Shown here: positions 947-10,096 of the stretch, piece after piece | Numbering within the stretch: position 1 is the first letter of the stretch | Layout of the letters: each line of letters begins with the position of its first letter | NCBI GenBank assembly: GCA_007119005.1 | Contig: SKQM01000239.1 | Span: 1 to 10,096 of the forward strand | DNA from: Thioalkalivibrio sp. | GTDB taxonomy: Bacteria > Pseudomonadota > Gammaproteobacteria > Ectothiorhodospirales > Ectothiorhodospiraceae | Direction of reading: 5' to 3' | Length of the DNA stretch: 10,096 bases | Position numbers and translations under genes: made by a program | Notes under the pieces: generated by a model | Seen by the model: the letters and a program-made list of their open reading frames with translations, nothing else | Database searches by the model: none | Told to the model about the DNA's origin: nothing

Positions 947-2263
947 TCACAGGGTGAGCGGAAAGTCCCGGACCAGCGCACCGGGGAGCAGGGCGCTCGC
1001 GGTGGAGCGCTGTCCGTAGGTTCCCGTATCGACGATTCGTTCGCGTTCCCGGGTCAGGCCGAGAAGGTTTTCACCGAGCAACTCATACAGACTGACATCG
1101 AAGCGCATCGGATCCACGGGTGCGACGGGGATGCCGTCGACCACCCGCAGGCAGGCGAAACGGGTCATGCCCGTCACCGCGCAGCGGGTGCGGTCCGAGA
1201 GGTTGCCATACCAGAGGTCGGAGACCAGCAGGCCGTCGCCCACGGCCCGGGCAGCCTCTTCAGTGGCGAGCGTCCCCGGTGCCATTTCCAGGCTCTCGGG
1301 TCTCTCCGCCGCCGCGTTCACCGCCACGCCGTACTCGCGGCTGGAACGGAGGTCGGCGAGACAACCGGCGTGTTGGCCGCCGGCGATCAGTGGCGTCCGG
1401 TCAGGCAGCGGGAAGCCCTCAGGGCTGAAACGCGGCGCCTGTCCGCCAGCGCAGTGCTCGTCCAGGTTCACCTCTGGGTGCAGCGCGATCTTGCCATCCG
1501 CGAGCTGGAGCAGGGGTGTCTGCCGCGTGCGGTGGGCGCGCAGACCGAAACCCTGCCAGGCGATCACCGAAAGGATCTCCATGAGTGCGGCCGGAGCCAG
1601 AAAGACCCGGTAGTTTCCGGGTTCCAGAGACATGGGTGCGCAGGCCATGATCTCCAGCTGATCCCGCGTCCCGTGGACCCTGGACGCGAGCGCCTCGGAG
1701 TCCCAATGCCGCCCCGCATAGCGTCCCTTCACCGCCTTGTCCGCACGGTGGTAGAGACTCCAGTCCAGGCTGAAGCTCTCGGTCTCGAACCAGTGCCATT
1801 GCCCGGCAGAGCCCGCGAAGCCGCGGCAAAGGCGTCCGGACGCGCAATGGCCGACCAGGTCCAGGCCGTCTGCGCTGCCGGTCAGTACCTCCAGGAGTTC
1901 GGCCGCGCCGGGCAGGCGGCCGCCGCGCAGGTCTTCGCTGTTCGAATCCGGTCCGGCGCAGGCGTGGTAGGGGTCCGGGGGTACCTGCGGCAACAGCGTG
2001 CGCAGTTGCGTCGTCGCGGCGCGCAGCTGTGCGGTGTCCGCGTCGGCGTCGCCGCTGAGGGGCAGCGTCGTGCGGACATGCCGCTGATCGCGTATCAGGT
2101 CCAGCGTGAGGCGTTGCTGCTGCACATGCCCCGCCTGACGGATGCGGTTGCCGTTCAGCCGCACGAAATCCGAGTCCTCGCCCTCGAACCAGGCGGTGAA
2201 GGCCTCGCCGGGTTGCAGCAGTCCCCGCAGTGCGACGGCCGCGCGCTCGAGACTCGCACGCAT
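947..2263 (-). CDS. TldE/PmbA-like partner subunit of a TldD-type protease
   Basis: The product is 438 residues long. The start is the ATG at 2263-2261, which overlaps the TGA of the upstream TldD-like gene by one base (TGATG), an arrangement for translational coupling. The frame runs on upstream to 2761, but only inside the TldD-like gene. The N-terminal part (SDFVRLNGNRIRQAG, then QRLTLDLI) matches TldD/PmbA-family N domains. The C-terminal half has the family's beta-rich shape but no HExxxH, as expected of the TldE/PmbA subunit, which lacks zinc ligands and forms a heterodimer with TldD. In Escherichia coli TldD/TldE remove leader peptides (microcin B17) and degrade unfolded peptides (CcdA). 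The length is close to E. coli PmbA (about 450). The substrate here is unknown and no RiPP precursor is seen nearby. Confidence 0.85.
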   Translation of the reverse strand: MRASLERAAVALRGLLQPGEAFTAWFEGEDSDFVRLNGNRIRQAGHVQQQRLTLDLIRDQRHVRTTLPLSGDADADTAQLRAATTQLRTLLPQVPPDPYHACAGPDSNSEDLRGGRLPGAAELLEVLTGSADGLDLVGHCASGRLCRGFAGSAGQWHWFETESFSLDWSLYHRADKAVKGRYAGRHWDSEALASRVHGTRDQLEIMACAPMSLEPGNYRVFLAPAALMEILSVIAWQGFGLRAHRTRQTPLLQLADGKIALHPEVNLDEHCAGGQAPRFSPEGFPLPDRTPLIAGGQHAGCLADLRSSREYGVAVNAAAERPESLEMAPGTLATEEAARAVGDGLLVSDLWYGNLSDRTRCAVTGMTRFACLRVVDGIPVAPVDPMRFDVSLYELLGENLLGLTRERERIVDTGTYGQRSTASALLPGALVRDFPLTL

Positions 2264-3720
2264 CAGGAACCGGCTCCGCCGAAGACCGCCACACCGCGGA
2301 AGAGACAGGGCGGCGAGGCGTGTCCAACTGCAATCATCTGGTTCGGCTCGCCCTTGCCGCAGGTTCCGACACCCATCACGCGGAAGCTGTCGCGGTGACC
2401 GACCCCGGCGAGGCTGCGCCAGAAGGCGGAGGAGATGCCGCGATAGCCGGGATTGCGGACCCGTTCCCGCAGTTCTCCATCTTCGATGCGCCAGCCCAGC
2501 TCGCAGCCGAACTGGAACTTGTTCCTCGAGTCGTCGATGGACCAGGAGCGGTTGGTCTCCATCAGCACTCCGTGCTCGACCGAGCGGACCAGGTCGTCCA
2601 GGCTGCTCTCGCCCGGTTCGAGGTTCAGGTTGGCCATGCGGTCGATAGGGGGCCGGTTCCAGGAACTGGCCCGGGCGCAGGCGACCCCTGGCAGGCCCGA
2701 CCGCGCCTGCGAGGTGGCTCCGCCCAGACCGCGCAGGAGCAGGCCTTCCCGGATCAGCCATTGCCGCTCGGCCCGCGTACCCTCATCGTCGTACCCGAAG
2801 GACGCGAGTTCACCGGGTACGGCGGGGTCGGAGGTGACGTTCAGCAGCTCCGAGCCATAGCGGAAGGTCCCGAACATCTCCGGGGTCACGAAGCTCGTTC
2901 CCGCGTAATTGCGTTCGTCGCCGAGGATGCGGTCCAGTTCCAGCGGGTGGCCGATGCTCTCGTGGATCTGCAGCGTCATCTGGCCGGGCATCAGCACGAG
3001 ATCCATCGTGCCGACAGGGCACTCGGGCGCATCGAGCAGGGACAGTGCATCACCGGCCACACGTTCCGGCTGGGCCTCAAATTCCAGCAGATCCAGCCGC
3101 TCCAGCCCACCCTGTCCCGCGAGATCCGGTCCGAAGCTGCGGACCTGGGTTTCTCCGCCCCGGTTCGCGACTGCACGCAGCCAGGGAACCAGCATGTGCT
3201 GGGTCTGATGGATTTCGCCGCCGTGCGCGTTCACCAGCAGGGACTCGCGCCGCTGGTAGCCCAGACCGGCCGACCAGTCGACAATCGCCTCGTGGATCTT
3301 CATCCGCCCGGCCAGGTCGCGCAGCCACTGCAGCTTGGCGGCCGTTCCCAGTTCCGACCAGTGCCGCTGAACCGGCGCCTCCCAGGCGTCGCGGATCCCG
3401 ATGGGTCCAAGCGGCTGGGGGGCGAATAGGCGCAGCGGTGCGGCCAGTTGCGCCCAGCCCCGGGCGCGTTCCACGGCGGCCGCCAGTCCTGCACGCGAGA
3501 GGTCGCTGGTCGCCGCATAGCCCACACCACCCGCCTCCGACAGCGTGACCATCACGCCGGTATCCCGCGCGAGCTGAACGGGCTCGACCACGTCCCGGCG
3601 CACCGAGAGGGTTTCGGAGGCTACATCGATGATTCTCAGCGACCAGTCGTCAACCGCCGGGACGATTTCGCGGAATCGCCCTGCGAGCTCGTGAAGGTCC
3701 TGTGTGGTTTGGTCGTTCAT
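2263..3720 (-). CDS. TldD-like zinc metalloprotease
   Basis: The product is 485 residues long, close to E. coli TldD (about 481). The zinc motif HESIGH (HExxxH) is at residues 253-258. Near the C terminus the family motif GTCGKGEPNQMIAVGH (about 452-467) supplies Cys454, the likely third zinc ligand, so all catalytic features are present. The N-terminal domain (1-230) is the family's substrate-channel part. TldD works with TldE in a closed heterodimer that admits only unfolded peptides and is cytoplasmic. The ATG at 3720 overlaps the TGA of the upstream membrane-protein gene by four bases (ATGA), and the stop overlaps the start of the TldE-like gene, so the three genes form one operon. In enterobacteria tldD and pmbA are unlinked; this linked pair is therefore probably a second, specialised copy. 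An AGAGGA sequence lies 9 bases before the start. Confidence 0.92.
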   Translation of the reverse strand: MNDQTTQDLHELAGRFREIVPAVDDWSLRIIDVASETLSVRRDVVEPVQLARDTGVMVTLSEAGGVGYAATSDLSRAGLAAAVERARGWAQLAAPLRLFAPQPLGPIGIRDAWEAPVQRHWSELGTAAKLQWLRDLAGRMKIHEAIVDWSAGLGYQRRESLLVNAHGGEIHQTQHMLVPWLRAVANRGGETQVRSFGPDLAGQGGLERLDLLEFEAQPERVAGDALSLLDAPECPVGTMDLVLMPGQMTLQIHESIGHPLELDRILGDERNYAGTSFVTPEMFGTFRYGSELLNVTSDPAVPGELASFGYDDEGTRAERQWLIREGLLLRGLGGATSQARSGLPGVACARASSWNRPPIDRMANLNLEPGESSLDDLVRSVEHGVLMETNRSWSIDDSRNKFQFGCELGWRIEDGELRERVRNPGYRGISSAFWRSLAGVGHRDSFRVMGVGTCGKGEPNQMIAVGHASPPCLFRGVAVFGGAGS

Positions 3721-4500: not shown

Positions 4501-4950
4501 ATGGACGAGAAGGAGTTCAAGGAAATCTATGGCGGCTACGATCCCCAGCGCTGCCATTTCAACAAGGCGATCCTGCTGGGTTGCGCGGGTTGCCATTGCT
4601 CGCAACGCGTGCTGATCGCCGAACGCGAGGCGATCAGCTGCCTGTCCCGGGCAGGCCACGAGCGTTGCGGCGCAGTGCTGTCGAACCTCAGGGAGAAGGC
4701 GGTGTTCGCGCTGGGAATGACCCATGCGGCGCAGGGTCTTCCGCATGGCAAGCAGGTCAAGGTCGAGTGCGGCGGGCTGGCGGCTCTGGCGCGGGTGGCA
4801 GGCGCTGCGCTGGCCGATGACATCGACAGAAGCCTGCAGCAGCTGGAGCGGGCGCCGGGCGGTCTGGAGGCCATCCCGTACGGCGAGGTCGTGCGTTCCA
4901 TCAGCCAGTATTCGCTACGCAAACGTGGCCGAGGCCCACGTTCGGATTAA
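4501..4950 (+). CDS. Cysteine-rich conserved protein, unknown function
   Basis: The product is 149 residues long. The N-terminal two thirds hold seven cysteines: C18, C28, C31, C33, C47, C56 and C90. The spacing C-x9-C-x2-C-x-C-x13-C-x8-C suggests a metal or iron-sulfur site, or a zinc-stabilised fold. Recognisable blocks are FKEIYGGYDP (6-15), FNKAILLGCAGCHC (20-33) and IAEREAISC (39-47). I recall similar unnamed proteobacterial proteins but no Pfam name and no experimental role. There is no signal peptide or membrane segment, so it is probably cytoplasmic. The C-terminal part is helical and ends in a basic tail (LRKRGRGPRSD). The frame is open upstream to 4297, but ATG 4501 precedes the conserved block directly, with AAGG about 6 bases before it. 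The TAA lies in the loop of an inverted repeat, and the PA2779-like gene follows after 59 bases in the same direction. Confidence 0.83.
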   Translation: MDEKEFKEIYGGYDPQRCHFNKAILLGCAGCHCSQRVLIAEREAISCLSRAGHERCGAVLSNLREKAVFALGMTHAAQGLPHGKQVKVECGGLAALARVAGAALADDIDRSLQQLERAPGGLEAIPYGEVVRSISQYSLRKRGRGPRSD

Positions 4951-4960
4951 TGTCCGAACG
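4939..4960. promoter_or_regulatory. Perfect 8-bp inverted repeat at the 3' end of the cysteine-rich gene
   Basis: CGTTCGGA (4939-4946) and TCCGAACG (4953-4960) are exact reverse complements around TTAATG, which contains the stop codon TAA. No T-run follows on either strand close enough for a standard intrinsic terminator. It could be an operator for the PA2779-like gene, which starts 50 bases downstream, or an mRNA 3'-end hairpin. Confidence 0.4.
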
Positions 4961-5009
4961 GGGCGCTTGGGATATCCTTGCCCTTCCATCCGTAACTGGA
5001 GGTACACCG

Positions 5010-5402
5010 ATGGCAGGCCACTCCTTGCTCACGCGCGTCGTCGCGCTGCTCTGTGCGCTCGCTCTCTTCGGGGCGGCCACGAGTCCGCTCCATGCATCGA
5101 TGCTGGGGACCGGCTCCCTGATCGAGGCGGAACAGTCCGTGGTGGATCGCGAACGGCTGCTGGTCCAGCTGGAACGCGAAGAGGTACGCACGCAATTGCA
5201 GGCGATGGGCGTCTCCGCGCAGGCCGCGGCCGAGCGCGTGGCCCGGATGACGGATGCCGAGATCGGGATGCTCAACGAACGCCTCGAGGAGATGCCCGCC
5301 GGGGCCGGGGCGCTGGGCGTGGTCCTGTTCATCGTGCTGCTGCTGGTGATCACCGACGCCCTCGGCATCACTGACATCTTCCCGTTCGTGCATTCGCAGT
5401 AG
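5010..5402 (+). CDS. PA2779-family membrane-anchored protein
   Basis: The product is 130 residues long. The ATG at 5010 follows GGAGG (4998-5002) with a 7-base gap and opens directly onto a signal peptide: TRVVALLCALALFGAA, with likely cleavage after LHA (residue 29). An in-frame ATG at 4950 would bury that signal. The mature part begins SMLGTGSLI, continues with a charged helical segment (RERLLVQLEREEVRTQLQ, then a GV..AAAERVARMTDAEI pattern), and ends with a membrane helix at about 101-117 followed by ITDALGITDIFPFV. That ending is characteristic of the PA2779 family. The function is unknown; the protein should sit in the inner membrane facing the periplasm. In Pseudomonas the gene neighbours PA2778, a predicted C39-like peptidase with TPR repeats; no such gene is next to this copy. 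It converges on lpxB across 47 bases. Confidence 0.85.
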   Translation: MAGHSLLTRVVALLCALALFGAATSPLHASMLGTGSLIEAEQSVVDRERLLVQLEREEVRTQLQAMGVSAQAAAERVARMTDAEIGMLNERLEEMPAGAGALGVVLFIVLLLVITDALGITDIFPFVHSQ

Positions 5403-5449: not shown

Positions 5450-6613
5450 TCAGTCCGGCTCCTGGCGGAGCCGGCCCGTTTCCAGCAACTCCAGCGCCAC
5501 GTCGGCCGCTCGCCGGTCGGCGCCGCCGGGTCCGAGGCGGCTGCGTACCGCTTCGAGGGCGTCACGCATCGCCGCGAGCTGGGTCGGATTCCGTAGCAGA
5601 TCCAAAGCCTCGCGACAGAGCGAAGCCGGCTCCGCGGCCCGCTGCAGCCGTTCGGGGACGAGGCGCCCCCCTCCGACGATGTTCGCGAGCGCCACGTGGG
5701 GCACGCGAACCAGTCGCGAGAACAGCGCATGGCTGATGGGCGACATGCGGTAGATCACGATCATCGGTGTCCGCAGCAGGGCCGCCTCCAGGGTGGCGGT
5801 GCCGGAACTGATCAGTAGCAGCTCGCTCGCGGCCATGACCTCCCGGGCACGGCCCGGTCCGGTGAGCAGGGTGATGGGCAGGCTTTCGGTGGGCGCCAGA
5901 GCCTCCAGATATTCGCCGCGGATGCCGGGTGCGAGCGGTACCAGGAAGTGCAGGTTTTCGCATTCGCGCTGCAGGCACCGGGCGGTGGCCAACAGCACCG
6001 GCCAGTGACGCTGGATCTCGCCCCGCCGCGAGCCTGGCAATAGGCCCAGCAGGCGCGTTCCCTCCGGTATACCCAATTCCCGGCGCAGGTCCCGAAGCGG
6101 GGCGTCCATCTGGTCCACCAGCGGATTGCCCACGTAGCGCACCGGGACTCCGTGTTCTTTGTAGACGCGGGTTTCGAACGGGAACAGGACCGCCATCGCG
6201 TCCACGCTGCGCTTGATCCGGTGGATGCGCTTCTGGCGCCAGGCCCAGATCTGCGGGCTCACGTAGAACAGCACGGGAATTCCAAGGCGCCGGGCATGGG
6301 CCCCGAGACGCAGATTGAATTCCACGTAATCGACCAGCACAAGCAGCGCAGGCCGGGTCTCCTCGAGGTGCCGCTGCATGCGGTGCAGCAGACCCCGGAG
6401 CCGGCGATACTGCGTGATCACCTCCCAGAGGCCCATCACCGCGAGTTCGGAGACGTCGATCAGCGTCTCGGCTCCGGCGTCCCGCATGGCCTCACCCCCC
6501 ATGCCCGTGAAGACGAGGTCCGGTCGGCGCTCGCGCAGCGAGCGCATCATGCCCGCCGCCAGGTTGTCGCCGGAGGTTTCGCCGGCACAGACGACGATGT
6601 GCGGGCCGCTCAT
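5450..6613 (-). CDS. lpxB: Lipid-A-disaccharide synthase
   Basis: The product is 387 residues long, the usual LpxB length (about 380). LpxB (GT19) joins UDP-2,3-diacylglucosamine to lipid X, forming the beta-1,6 disaccharide of lipid A at the inner face of the inner membrane. Visible motifs are AGETSGD (10-16), LAVMGLWEV (57-65), FYVSPQIWAWR (116-126), LFPFE (143-147), LLPGSR (191-196) and SSGTATLEAAL (269-279). Asp95 and Arg196 align with E. coli Asp98 and Arg201, which matter for catalysis. Two motifs differ from the common form: DxPDFN reads DYVEFN (95-100) and VGHPL reads VGNPL (161-165). It is the last gene of the gnnA-gnnB-lpxB unit, 53 bases after gnnB. The acceptor and donor may therefore carry N-linked 3-acyl chains. 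No strong ribosome site is seen before the ATG at 6613. Confidence 0.95.
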   Translation of the reverse strand: MSGPHIVVCAGETSGDNLAAGMMRSLRERRPDLVFTGMGGEAMRDAGAETLIDVSELAVMGLWEVITQYRRLRGLLHRMQRHLEETRPALLVLVDYVEFNLRLGAHARRLGIPVLFYVSPQIWAWRQKRIHRIKRSVDAMAVLFPFETRVYKEHGVPVRYVGNPLVDQMDAPLRDLRRELGIPEGTRLLGLLPGSRRGEIQRHWPVLLATARCLQRECENLHFLVPLAPGIRGEYLEALAPTESLPITLLTGPGRAREVMAASELLLISSGTATLEAALLRTPMIVIYRMSPISHALFSRLVRVPHVALANIVGGGRLVPERLQRAAEPASLCREALDLLRNPTQLAAMRDALEAVRSRLGPGGADRRAADVALELLETGRLRQEPD

Positions 6614-6666
6614 TTCAGGGCACCCGGAGGTCGGATGTCAGGCCGGCGGTCGGGATCACGCGCGGG

Positions 6667-7764
6667 TCAGGCAAGGGCGGCCCGGATACGCTCGCCGATG
6701 AAGTCGATCTGCGCATCCTCGAGCTCCGGGAAGATGGGCAGCGACAGGCAGCGGGCAGCGACAGCCTCCGCCACCGGCAGGCTCGGGGGCGCCTTCTCGC
6801 GGTTGTCGAAAGCGGCCTGACGATGCAGAGGGATCGGGTAGTAGATCGCATGCCCGATGTCGGCCTCCTGCAGTGCCGCCATCACGGCCTCGCGGTGATC
6901 GGTGAGCAGAGTGTACTGGTGATACACATGTTGCCCGATGCCGTCCTCGTACGGGATCTCTACGTCGAGGTCGGCCAGAACCTCGGCATAGCGCGCTGCG
7001 ACACGGCGCCGCGCCTGGTTGAACCCGTCGATGCGCTTGAGCTTCACGCGCAGGATCGCGGCCTGTATCTCGTCCAGCCGCGAGTTATAGCCGATCTCGT
7101 CGTGATGGTAGCGAACCTTGGAGCCGTGGTTGCGCAGCTTCAGGAGCCGTTCCGCAGCGGGGGTGCAGTTGGTGGTGACCAGGCCGCCGTCGCCGTAGCA
7201 GCCCAGATTCTTGCTGGGGAAGAAGCTGAAACAGCCGAACGCGGTTGCGCTGCCGGTCTGCACGCCGTCGATGTGCGCGCCGAAGGACTGGGCACAGTCT
7301 TCGATCAGGAGCAGCAGGTGGTCCTCCGCCAGTCGGGTCAGGGCAGGCATGTTCGCCGGTTGCCCGAAAAGGTGCACCGGAAGGATGGCCCGCGTCCGCG
7401 GCGTGATCGCTTCGGCCACGGCGTCCGGATCGATGTTGAACGTGCGCGGATCGATATCGACGAAGACCGGTTCCGCCCCGACGTACCGGATCGCCTCCGC
7501 GGTGGCGATGAAGGTGAACGGGCTGGTGATCACCTCGTCGCCCGGTCCGAGATCGGCCGCCCGCAGCGCGAGGTGCAGCGCATCGGTGCCGGAGGCGCAG
7601 GTGATCGCATGGGTGACGCCCAGGTATTCCGCGAGTTCGGACTCCAGCGCCTGGACGTTGGGGCCGAGGATGAAGCGCGTGCTCTCGAGGACCTCGGCGA
7701 TGGCCGCATCGATTTCGCTGCGCAGGTCGTGGTACTGACGATGCAGGTCGACCATCGGAATCAT
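6667..7764 (-). CDS. gnnB: UDP-3-keto-GlcNAc aminotransferase, GnnB-like (DegT/DnrJ/EryC1 family)
   Basis: The product is 365 residues long, a full-length fold-type I sugar aminotransferase. MIPMVDLHRQY opens the protein as in the WlbE/GnnB branch. ASGTDALHLAL (57-67) binds the PLP phosphate, IEDCAQ (154-159) holds the Asp that pairs with the ring nitrogen, and SFFPSKNLGCYGDGG (180-194) holds the PLP lysine, K185. GYNSRLDEIQAA (225-236) and YYPIPLHRQ (308-316) are further family blocks. The predicted reaction is transfer of the amino group from glutamate to UDP-3-keto-GlcNAc, giving UDP-GlcNAc3N for lipid A. The symbol rests on position between the oxidoreductase gene and lpxB; the close relatives WbpE/WlbE make UDP-2,3-diacetamido uronic acids for O-antigen and cannot be excluded by sequence alone. 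GGGGGGAG, within the last codons of the upstream gene, is a strong ribosome site, and only three bases separate the two genes. Confidence 0.83.
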   Translation of the reverse strand: MIPMVDLHRQYHDLRSEIDAAIAEVLESTRFILGPNVQALESELAEYLGVTHAITCASGTDALHLALRAADLGPGDEVITSPFTFIATAEAIRYVGAEPVFVDIDPRTFNIDPDAVAEAITPRTRAILPVHLFGQPANMPALTRLAEDHLLLLIEDCAQSFGAHIDGVQTGSATAFGCFSFFPSKNLGCYGDGGLVTTNCTPAAERLLKLRNHGSKVRYHHDEIGYNSRLDEIQAAILRVKLKRIDGFNQARRRVAARYAEVLADLDVEIPYEDGIGQHVYHQYTLLTDHREAVMAALQEADIGHAIYYPIPLHRQAAFDNREKAPPSLPVAEAVAARCLSLPIFPELEDAQIDFIGERIRAALA

Positions 7765-7767
7765 GGT

Positions 7768-8760
7768 TCAGCTCCCCCCGGCTGCGTGCGGTTCCGCAGC
7801 TCTGGTCATGATGTTCAGGTTGGTGTGGACGAGGTCCGTGATCCGTGTGGCGGTTTCGAGTGCCCGCTGCGCGGCGTGTCCATCGACGATCACCGGCTGC
7901 TCCCCACGGACCGCGGCCACGAACGCCTGGATCTCGGTGAGCAGCGCGTCGGAGTCGCCGAACATGAGTTCCTCGCTGTGTATCTCGGGGACGCCGGTCT
8001 CCGGGTCATCGTCCCCCATGTGGTACAGCGCGAGGATCCGGTTCTGGAAGTCCACGACGGCATATCCGTGTGACTGAAAGATGCGCATGCGCCGCTCCGA
8101 CTTGGTGCTGACGCGGCTGGAGGTGACGTTGGCCACGCAGCCGTCGGCGAATTCCAGGCGGGCGTTCACGATGTCGATGTCGCCGGTGAGAATCCGGGCG
8201 CCCGAGGCGCGGATTTCGGTCAACGGCGCCTTCACGAGGTCGAGGATGATATCGATGTCGTGGATCATCAGGTCGAGCACCACGGAGACGTCGGTGGCCC
8301 GGGGCTTGAACGGTGCGAGCCGGTGCGACTCGATGAACCGCGGCTGCAGGGGTTCTTCCAGCAGCCGTCGCAGCGCGACGTTGAAGCGTTCCAGATGCCC
8401 CACCTGCAGGACCACACCGCGCTCCTCGGCGAGCTGGTTCAGAGCCTCCGCTTCCTCGATCGTGGTCGTGATCGGTTTTTCGACCAGCACGTGGCAGCCC
8501 ACGTCGAGGAAGTCCCGCGCGATCGCGTAGTGCAGCGTGGTGGGTGCGGCGATGCTCACGGCGTCGACGCGCCCGAGCAGGGCCCGGTGATCCAGCACCG
8601 GCTCGCAGTCGTACTTCGCGGCGATCTCGCGGGCGGTGGCGGCATTGCTGTCCACCACCGCCACCAGCTCCGTATCCGGGAGTTGCGCGTACTTGGCAGC
8701 GTGCCACTTTCCGAGGTGGCCGACGCCGACCACGGCACAACGGAGTGGGGGGGTGGACAT
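7768..8760 (-). CDS. gnnA: UDP-GlcNAc 3-dehydrogenase, GnnA-like (Gfo/Idh/MocA family)
   Basis: The product is 330 residues long. The N-terminal Rossmann fold shows VVGVGHLGKWHA (10-21) with GxGxxG, an Asp at the end of the second strand (VVDSN, 35-39) suited to NAD, and HVLVEKPI (90-97), the family's catalytic-lysine motif. LQVGHLERFN and DLMIHDIDIILDL follow; the His in the second is a typical Gfo/Idh/MocA active-site position. The predicted reaction is oxidation of the 3-OH of UDP-GlcNAc to the 3-keto sugar, which GnnB then aminates. The combination with gnnB and lpxB, as in Acidithiobacillus ferrooxidans, is the main support; a WbpB-type role in O-antigen sugar synthesis is the alternative, but that enzyme works on the uronic acid and its genes usually lie with glycosyltransferases, which are absent here. 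It is the first gene of the unit, divergent from rnhB, with only a weak GGGA ribosome site. Confidence 0.83.
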   Translation of the reverse strand: MSTPPLRCAVVGVGHLGKWHAAKYAQLPDTELVAVVDSNAATAREIAAKYDCEPVLDHRALLGRVDAVSIAAPTTLHYAIARDFLDVGCHVLVEKPITTTIEEAEALNQLAEERGVVLQVGHLERFNVALRRLLEEPLQPRFIESHRLAPFKPRATDVSVVLDLMIHDIDIILDLVKAPLTEIRASGARILTGDIDIVNARLEFADGCVANVTSSRVSTKSERRMRIFQSHGYAVVDFQNRILALYHMGDDDPETGVPEIHSEELMFGDSDALLTEIQAFVAAVRGEQPVIVDGHAAQRALETATRITDLVHTNLNIMTRAAEPHAAGGS

Positions 8761-8810
8761 GGCAATTCCCGGCAGGTTGTGATCGGATGCTGTGGTAGTG
8801 TAGCGCGCCG

Positions 8811-8843
8811 GACCGGTGGGCTGAGGGCGCGGCCCCGCCGGTC
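8811..8843. other. GC-rich hairpin in the gnnA/rnhB divergent intergenic region
   Basis: GACCGGTGGG (8811-8820) pairs with CCCGCCGGTC (8834-8843) over ten positions, one of them a G-U pair in RNA, with a loop of 13 bases. It lies near the middle of the 157-base gap (8761-8917) between two divergent genes, so it could form in the leader of either transcript. No T-run follows closely, so it does not look like a terminator. Clear -35/-10 boxes were not found in the gap. Confidence 0.3.
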
Positions 8844-8917
8844 GGCAACAGCTCTTTTCGCGCTAGTGTAACCAATCCGCCCGGTGTTGGGTCCGGACGT
8901 GGGGGGGAAGACGTCAG

Positions 8918-9541
8918 ATGGGGAATGAGGGCGCGTTCGGGCCCCGGACGGTGCAGGGTGTCGCCGGGGTGGATGAGGTCGGCCGAGGGCCTCTGGCGGG
9001 TCCCGTCGTGGCCGCAGCCGTGATCCTTCCCGAGTCCTATGCCCTTGCCGGTCTTGCCGACTCCAAGCGCCTGAGCGCACGCCGCCGAGAGGTCCTCGCC
9101 GGTATCCTGCGCTCCGAGGCCGCGGCCTGGGCGCTGGGCAGCGCGAGCGCGGCGGAGATCGACCAGCTGAACATCCATCACGCGACGCTGCTGGCGATGC
9201 GCCGGGCGGTTCTGGCGCTGCCATGGGTTCCGGCGGATCTTCTGGTGGATGGCCGGTTCACCCCGGAGGGGCCCTGGCGTGCCACCGCCGTGGTCGGCGG
9301 AGATGCCACGGTCCCAGCGATCAGCGCCGCTTCGATTATCGCCAAGGTGGCCCGGGATGCGTTGCTGGCCGAGTTGCACCTGAGGTATCCCGTGTACGGG
9401 TTCGATCGCCACGCGGGTTATCCGACCGTCGCGCACCTGTGCGCGCTGGAGCGCCACGGGCCCTGTCCGGAACACCGCCGCAGCTTCGGGCCCGTGGCCC
9501 GGAGCCTCGAAGCGAACCGGGTCCTGGAGCCCCTGCGATGA
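8918..9541 (+). CDS. rnhB: Ribonuclease HII
   Basis: The product is 207 residues long, normal for bacterial RNase HII (about 200). The enzyme nicks DNA 5' of misincorporated ribonucleotides and starts ribonucleotide excision repair. [20 protein letters not shown] (15-34) gives the catalytic Asp19 and Glu20 and the GRG loop that senses the RNA-DNA junction. LADSKRLS (46-53), LLVDG with Asp111, and [10 protein letters not shown] with Asp147 complete the DEDD set; these assignments are by motif. The C-terminal block [11 protein letters not shown] and HRRSFGPV is typical. The ATG at 8918 has GGGGGGGAAG (8901-8910) 7 bases upstream. The stop overlaps the dnaE start (ATGA), the usual gammaproteobacterial arrangement. 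Confidence 0.96.
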
Positions 9542-10096
9542 CCGGCTTCGTGCATCTCAGAATCCACTCCGAGTACTCCCTGGTGGATGGCCTGGTGAGG
9601 CTCAAGCCACTGGTGGCCCGCGTTGCCGAGGCAGGGATGCCAGCGGTAGCGGTGACCGACCACTGCAACCTCTTCGGCCTCGTGAAATTCTACAAGGCGG
9701 CGCTGAGCGCGGGCGTGCAGCCGATCGTTGGCGCCGATGTACTGTTGCGCGGCCCCCGTGCGGACGGATCCCTCGCGCGGCTGACGCTGCTCGCGCAGAA
9801 CAGTGAAGGCTACCGGTATCTGACGCGGCTGATCAGCCGGGCCTGGCAGGAGGGGCAGGACAAGGGGGTGCCGAGGCTGGATCTCGGGTGGCTCGAGGGC
9901 TGTACCGACGGGTTGATCGCCCTGTCTGGCACGACCGACGGCATCTTTGCGCAGGGATCCGGGAGTCCCGTGACGCTGACCGAGGAGCTTCTGGCTCCCT
10001 GGCTGGCGCTGTTTCCCGAACGTTTCTACCTCGAACTCACGCGTACCGGACGTCCGGGAGAGGAAGCCTGGATCACCACCGCGCTGGCAGGTGCCG
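9538..10096 (+). CDS. dnaE: DNA polymerase III alpha subunit, N-terminal part (runs off the window)
   Basis: The ATG at 9538 overlaps the rnhB stop by four bases, and the frame stays open for 186 codons to the window edge. The full protein is normally about 1150 residues and is the replicative polymerase. The visible part is the PHP domain: [17 protein letters not shown] (4-20), [17 protein letters not shown] (39-55), VQPIVGADV, then ALSGTTDG and [14 protein letters not shown]. The PHP domain binds the epsilon proofreading subunit in gammaproteobacteria. One usual metal ligand of the HxH motif is Arg8 (HLR), while the His of TDH (His42) is kept. Translational coupling to rnhB is likely. Confidence 0.97.

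Follow-up and report, generated by a model that had tools for sequence, protein, structure and literature searches.

The window analysed here, meaning the whole 10,096-nucleotide stretch of contig SKQM01000239.1 from Thioalkalivibrio sp. (assembly GCA_007119005.1), is an entire contig of an incomplete metagenome-assembled genome (MAG; 1.56 Mb, 58.55% complete) and carries on its minus strand the genes gnnA, gnnB, and lpxB, which very probably constitute a cassette for lipid A built on 2,3-diamino-glucose (GlcN3N). A preliminary description, made from the letters alone, had recognized a Gfo/Idh/MocA dehydrogenase, a DegT-type aminotransferase, and lpxB in one orientation; open reading frames (ORFs) and profiles confirm this arrangement, with intergenic gaps of 3 bases between gnnA and gnnB and 53 bases between gnnB and lpxB. 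On the plus strand, rnhB and dnaE diverge from gnnA, and lpxA is not adjacent to lpxB in the window. The features are as follows:

5450–6613, minus strand: lpxB, ORF of 387 amino acids; lipid-A-disaccharide synthase of the gnn-linked LpxB lineage (TIGR00215, LpxB trees)
6667–7764, minus strand: gnnB, ORF of 365 amino acids; pyridoxal phosphate (PLP) aminotransferase, putatively converting UDP-3-keto-GlcNAc (GlcNAc, N-acetylglucosamine) to its 3-amino product UDP-GlcNAc3N (PF01041, PDB, motif)
7768–8760, minus strand: gnnA, ORF of 330 amino acids; putative UDP-GlcNAc 3-dehydrogenase dependent on nicotinamide adenine dinucleotide (NAD) (PF01408, 7bvj, motifs)
8761–8917, no strand: divergent intergenic region between gnnA and rnhB, 157 bases (from ORF coordinates), within which the cassette promoter is expected
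8918–9541, plus strand: rnhB, ribonuclease HII (NF000596 and NF000595 over cut-off), a native lpx-operon neighbour
9538–10096, plus strand: 5′ end of dnaE, overlapping rnhB by 4 bases and interrupted by the contig end at 10096 (ORF, tblastn)

The closest named relative, locus L002 of a Thioalkalivibrio sp. MAG that is an independent record and whose GnnA is 97% identical, matches the order of the window: dnaE, rnhB, gnnA, gnnB, lpxB, a PA2779-family gene, and tldD. In the pathway proposed for the cassette, GnnA would oxidise the 3-OH of UDP-GlcNAc with NAD as the acceptor, and GnnB would transaminate the resulting 3-ketone to UDP-GlcNAc3N. The 3-amine of this product would then receive the first acyl chain, in amide linkage, from LpxA, whose gene lies elsewhere in the genome, and two such units would be joined by the LpxB of the cassette-specific lineage. 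The route from GnnA and GnnB through LpxA to LpxB is established for named enzymes of other bacteria; here it is met in another genus, where it is well supported at the sequence level. From the observed genes, gene order, motifs, LpxA residues, and gene trees, we infer the activities of GnnA and GnnB, the substrate preference of LpxA, and the structure of the host lipid A. Amide-linked chains at position 3 of such a backbone had been proposed in the preliminary description, and the 7bvj match, the motifs, the presence of lpxA and lpxD elsewhere in the genome, and the LpxA pocket residues described below speak for them, the chemistry itself still being a prediction.

LpxB exceeds the cut-off of the TIGR00215 equivalog (300 bits vs. 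190.25) and matches PF02684 at 314 bits, GnnB matches the DegT/DnrJ/EryC1/StrS family (PF01041) at 419 bits, and GnnA matches GFO_IDH_MocA (PF01408) at 114 bits. The top PDB match to GnnA is 7bvj (E = 8.9e-71), the runner-up reaching only 3.5e-19 among the 60 matches listed of 84; we take 7bvj to be GnnA of Acidithiobacillus ferrooxidans, the PDB listing naming it only 'Oxidoreductase, NAD-binding'. No curated NCBIfam cut-off is reached by GnnA or GnnB, the best model for GnnA being the archaeal NF040723, 'UDP-N-acetylglucosamine 3-dehydrogenase' (189 bits; cut-off, 450). Motifs E94-K95-P96 and H167-D168 are intact in 106/106 GnnA rows of at least 280 amino acids, and the PLP lysine of GnnB, Lys185 in the motif SFFPSKN, is found in 89/90 GnnB rows that reach 330 amino acids, the window's among them. 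The best PDB match to GnnB, 7b0d (1.2e-103), is closely followed by WbpE (3nu7, 4.8e-96), as would suit a WbpB/WbpE-type pair that lies beside lpxB incidentally and belongs to the diacetamido-uronic acid pathway of an O-antigen. Such an assignment is nevertheless most improbable, given that the top match to GnnA is 7bvj, that none of the 60 PDB matches listed for it, of 84, bears the name WbpB, that no nucleotide-sugar 6-dehydrogenase (WbpA) over cut-off was found in the host genome at its 58.55% completeness, and that the gnn genes are linked to one LpxB lineage. The idea that WbpB and WbpE proteins, with a proven uronic-acid pathway in the same genome, are the closest homologues of both enzymes, which the preliminary description had named as grounds for refuting its own proposal, finds little support.

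The search for lpxA and lpxD elsewhere in the genome, suggested in the same description, recovers one of each: lpxA in the order skp-fabZ-lpxA (L082), with lpxD absent between skp and fabZ, and lpxD beside ispH (L083). When compared with a GlcNAc3N-selective enzyme, as had also been suggested, the host LpxA resembles that of Leptospira in its pocket residues, having Ser76 and Val200 and thus neither Lys76 nor Glu200 (Escherichia coli numbering). Leptospira interrogans LpxA reportedly requires UDP-GlcNAc3N, and that of A. ferrooxidans is said to prefer the amino sugar (both Sweet 2004). According to Table 1 of PMC7072397, E. coli Lys76 lies in the GlcNAc pocket, and a Lys is also given for Pseudomonas aeruginosa, Acinetobacter baumannii, Helicobacter pylori, and Bacteroides fragilis, with Gly71 in L. 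interrogans; our own alignments confirm the letters of this table for Leptospira, P. aeruginosa, and 4e6u. In the mechanism proposed here, the positive charge of Lys76 would disfavour a 3-ammonium substrate, and loss of this lysine would admit the amino sugar. Because the only LpxA found in the genome lacks both Lys76 and Glu200, it is predicted to prefer UDP-GlcNAc3N, and the primary chains should then be mostly or entirely amide-linked.

The relationship between gnnA and LpxA residues was examined in a class sample of 114 genomes, about one per family of the window's class, in which 46 (the host counted) are gnnA-positive, that is, match the window's GnnA at E 1e-25 or better, and 68 have no match, 65 of these having lpxA or lpxB. 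It should be noted that in some gnnA-positive genomes gnnA lies far from the lpx genes and may serve elsewhere. The residue test covers the 45 other gnnA-positive genomes and 46 of the 65 gnnA-negative ones, LpxA below 200 amino acids being excluded; the 19 gnnA-negative genomes outside it are 15 with lpxA and lpxB apart, together with G130, G132, G140, and G141. Among 262 LpxA positions, Lys76 is the best separator of the two groups, with at least one copy without Lys76 in 33/45 gnnA-positive versus 2/46 gnnA-negative genomes (Fisher 1.7e-12), and Glu200 is the second best (38/45 vs. 10/46; Fisher 1.4e-9). Position 76 remains top-ranked among gnnA-positive genomes with a single LpxA, 17 of 29 having lost the lysine. 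Two LpxA occur in 16 of the 45, one copy with and one without Lys76 in 15 of them; in G104 neither copy has Lys76, the first being poorly aligned there. Among the 65 gnnA-negative genomes, only G132 (6% contamination) has two. In G055 (L105), a cluster lpxA-gnnA-lpxA2-lpxB lies on one strand, and LpxA of the Lys76/Glu200 and Ser76/Val200 types are both present. LpxA position 99 (His in E. coli, Ser in the host) was dropped as a candidate, congeners having His, and His, Asn, or Ser occurring in both groups.

In a phylum sample, where gnnA-positive means a GnnA of at least 40% identity, LpxA without Lys76 is found in 7 of 8 gnnA-positive versus none of 16 new gnnA-negative genomes (Fisher 2.3e-5). 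LpxA was read for eight of the nine positives (not for G177). Among the 22 genomes that have LpxA and gave no GnnA match, it was read for 18, and all 18, the 16 new ones included, have Lys76. The exception among the positives is G143, which has Lys76 in the one of its two LpxA that was read. Three further genomes with weaker GnnA matches have His, His, and Lys at position 76, and the Fisher value becomes 1.2e-5 if they are counted as gnnA-positive and 3.0e-4 if as gnnA-negative. These Fisher values ignore relatedness among genomes. A pair test was made on an rpoB tree, since the LpxA tree had too few supported branches (two pairs); 77 of the 91 genomes were used, nine being without a match, G051, G037, and G061 partial, and G058 and G121 excluded for long branches. 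It yields seven supported independent pairs, of which a mean of 4.8 run as expected, 0.0 run the opposite way, and 2.2 show no difference. The LpxA tree itself (122 rows, few supported branches) has 11 changes at Lys76 in all, and the LpxA without this lysine fall into one separate family, drawn only from gnnA-positive genomes and including Methylococcus, and several scattered groups within canonical LpxA. Glu200 was rejected as a general marker because genomes without a GnnA match outside the class also have Val or Ile at position 200.

Several points weigh against the reading of the cassette and of LpxA given above. With relatedness controlled, the link between Lys76 and gnnA is consistent in direction and not significant (median p 0.0625), and the Glu200 signal does not hold outside the class. 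Two gnnA-negative genomes lack Lys76 (G074, Thr; G118, Gln), and 12 of the 29 gnnA-positive genomes with a single LpxA keep it, so gnnA without a change in LpxA is common. GnnB is almost as near to WbpE as to its top PDB match, and, the host genome being 58.55% complete, a second LpxA could be missing from it. In addition, E. coli LpxA reportedly accepts both sugars in vitro (Sweet 2004). A part of the published residue data also differs: a text passage of PMC7072397 has P. aeruginosa Lys72 replaced by Met72 in Burkholderia thailandensis and by Phe72 in L. interrogans. On the Leptospira residue this passage conflicts with the paper's own table, and B. thailandensis may be a counter-example, its Met possibly falling at the neighbouring Leu75 place.

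Retention of Lys76 in the 12 single-LpxA genomes would be expected if GnnA and GnnB make UDP-GlcNAc3N but LpxA takes both sugars, resulting in a mixed or hybrid lipid A of glucosamine (GlcN) and GlcN3N. The lipid A of A. ferrooxidans is of this mixed or hybrid kind. Hybrid backbones are described for Campylobacter jejuni (PMC7956469) and for Capnocytophaga canimorsus, the latter with two lpxA genes (PMC3342949). For the host, such an outcome appears unlikely: like the host LpxA, 25/25 fetched congener LpxA lack Lys76 (with Val or Ile at position 200), and LpxA, matched in 26 of the 30 genomes of the genus, is a single copy in each. GnnA is present in 29 of these 30 genomes (the host counted) and in 23/23 of those that are at least 90% complete.

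Along with the predicted preference of the host LpxA for UDP-GlcNAc3N, a wider proposal can be made, for which we see even chances, namely that LpxA position 76 is a general sugar gate of lipid A, Lys selecting GlcNAc and other residues GlcNAc3N. Lys76 would have been lost repeatedly in the presence of gnnA-gnnB. The cassette would move, or repeatedly disappear, as one piece together with its LpxB lineage, and its traces would be readable in genomes that seem to have reverted to GlcNAc, which have lpxB still inverted, no gnnA, and an LpxA with Lys76. Given that 15 of the 16 gnnA-positive genomes with two LpxA have one of each kind, such species would, under a gate of this sort, make mixed or switchable lipid A. 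The rule joining gnnA to LpxA position 76, the genomes that have two LpxA, and a cassette bringing along an LpxB of its own are the new content of this analysis; no Lys76 rule is stated in the literature searched, most subscription journals lying outside its coverage.

The LpxB of the cassette belongs to a lineage of its own. A tree of LpxB rows of at least 330 amino acids, with 15 named loci, splits in two with a support of 98. The side of 44 rows contains 37 gnn-linked LpxB, four unlinked ones from gnnA-positive genomes, and three from gnnA-negative genomes, and the side of 61 rows contains 43 from gnnA-negative genomes, 16 unlinked ones from gnnA-positive genomes, and two linked ones (G055, G138). 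The split has a support of 100 with 62 selected rows, 36 of them chosen from the 61; this selection omits most named loci, one LpxB of G044 (its second), and the gnn-type rows of G038, G050, G051, G064, and G070. By rpoB, with G071, G072, and G074 additionally dropped, the cassette carriers are rejected as one clade, the log-likelihood being 399.7 lower under the constraint (approximately unbiased test, p-AU 5.7e-6); the LpxB lineage of the cassette does not follow species. That carriers are not one clade by rpoB and their LpxB is one does not, by itself, decide between transfer and repeated loss. It is conceivable, and we entertain it with more doubt than confidence, that the gnn-linked LpxB is an ancient duplicate, differentially retained and lost by vertical descent and not moved between lineages; the two kinds of LpxB are deeply diverged, and in 29 of 80 fetched relatives the cassette sits between rnhB and lpxA, the native lpx locus, whereas the rejection by rpoB of the carriers as one clade, set against the single LpxB clade, speaks for another history.

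Three gnnA-negative genomes (G073, G076, and G106) fall within the cassette LpxB clade, and these are also the only gnnA-negative ones with lpxB inverted against lpxA. All three have an LpxA with Lys76, and their lineages look like reversions to GlcNAc. In G073, where lpxB directly adjoins rnhB, the 10 kb fetched contain no match to gnnA or gnnB, and the 12 kb from G076 likewise show neither gene. G106 has lost gnnA, and its gnnB homologue beside the cassette-type lpxB (L232, 9066–10133), 42% identical and with its PLP-lysine motif replaced, reads as a decaying or repurposed aminotransferase.

The position of the cassette was compared among the best 80 of 215 relatives of GnnA from named genomes. 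The arrangement is not a chance one, as 67/80 have gnnA-gnnB-lpxB in this order and in a single orientation; a contig or locus end interrupts 11 of the remaining 13, but not L075 and L079. Locus L009, of the cultured isolate T. versutus AL 2, has the cassette as well. The cassette diverges from rnhB or dnaE in 59/80; lpxA is convergent behind lpxB in 29, all among these 59, and colinear in front of the cassette in 13, neither neighbour being in reach in eight. Of the 65 gnnA-negative genomes in the class sample, 47 have lpxA and lpxB side by side in one orientation, 15 have them apart, and three have them convergent. This colinearity, taken with the divergence and convergence in the relatives, indicates that the cassette lies inverted in a skp-lpxD-fabZ-lpxA-[lpxB]-rnhB-dnaE block. 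Judged from the relatives, lpxA would have been relocated in the window's branch. The host lpxD (L083, 544–1566, minus strand) is 40–46% identical to the skp/fabZ-adjacent lpxD of nine Thioalkalivibrio (L007–L012, L015–L017), versus 74–78% for lpxA and the same loci, and a distant lpxD may have taken the place of the native gene in the host genome. Downstream of the host lpxA lies an ORF (L082, 2546–3754) that, from a resemblance noted by eye, presumably belongs to a photolyase-related (cryptochrome-like) family. In the window, a small PA2779-family (DUF6627) protein is encoded at 4950–5402 on the plus strand, convergent with lpxB, and occupies the same place in L002, L003, L004, and L006. A TldD homologue (2263–3720, minus strand) falls far short of the NCBIfam TldD cut-offs, and after it comes another protein (about 947–2200, minus strand) that has a PmbA/TldD domain.

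Suitability of an amide-linked lipid A for an extreme-pH or saline habitat had been put forward in the preliminary description. The nearest relatives do come from soda lakes, Thioalkalivibrio being soda-lake organisms (PMC8092127), but adaptation to pH or salt does not follow. The gene gnnA is present in 46/114 genomes sampled from the various families of the class. The lipid A of the halophile Spiribacter salinus, which is placed in Ectothiorhodospiraceae, is built on glucosamine, and its 3 and 3′ chains (10:0(3-OH)) are released by ammonium hydroxide (PMC5923411). For these reasons no adaptation is claimed, and habitat as a driver is unsupported by the spread of gnnA across the class. In the literature searched, outside of which most subscription journals lie, none of the papers listed is, by its title, on Thioalkalivibrio lipid A.

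Ordinarily, the chemistry of lipid A is learned from lipopolysaccharide that has been isolated and degraded. If the rule holds, gnnA and LpxA residue 76 together would predict ester- versus amide-linked 3-chains, a prediction readable from the genomes of uncultured bacteria and open to test in strains of Thioalkalivibrio and Methylococcus that can be cultured, and would also tell genomes with mixed backbones (two LpxA types) and genomes that have lost the pathway. For the outer membrane of the host, the primary acyl chains are predicted to survive mild base.

Among known systems, the closest is the GnnA/GnnB pair of A. ferrooxidans, reportedly described by Sweet and co-workers in 2004, which likewise consists of a dehydrogenase gene and an aminotransferase gene associated with lpx genes. 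The A. ferrooxidans pair presumably lies between lpxA and lpxB, whereas the unit in the window diverges from rnhB-dnaE and is apart from lpxA. L. interrogans LpxA (3hsq) has Gly at the place of Lys76 and Val at that of Glu200, as the host enzyme has Ser and Val. In contrast to it, the host LpxA groups with the canonical LpxA of its class (PDB 7oj6, 3.2e-82; 3hsq, 3.2e-50), and it appears, from a tree with few well-supported branches, to have lost Lys76 separately. The Methylococcus-like lpxA-gnnA-gnnB-lpxB cluster shares with the window an identical gnnA-gnnB-lpxB order and the same LpxB clade, but differs in being colinear with a distant LpxA of its own, 34–38% identical to the window's, an arrangement found in 13/80 loci.

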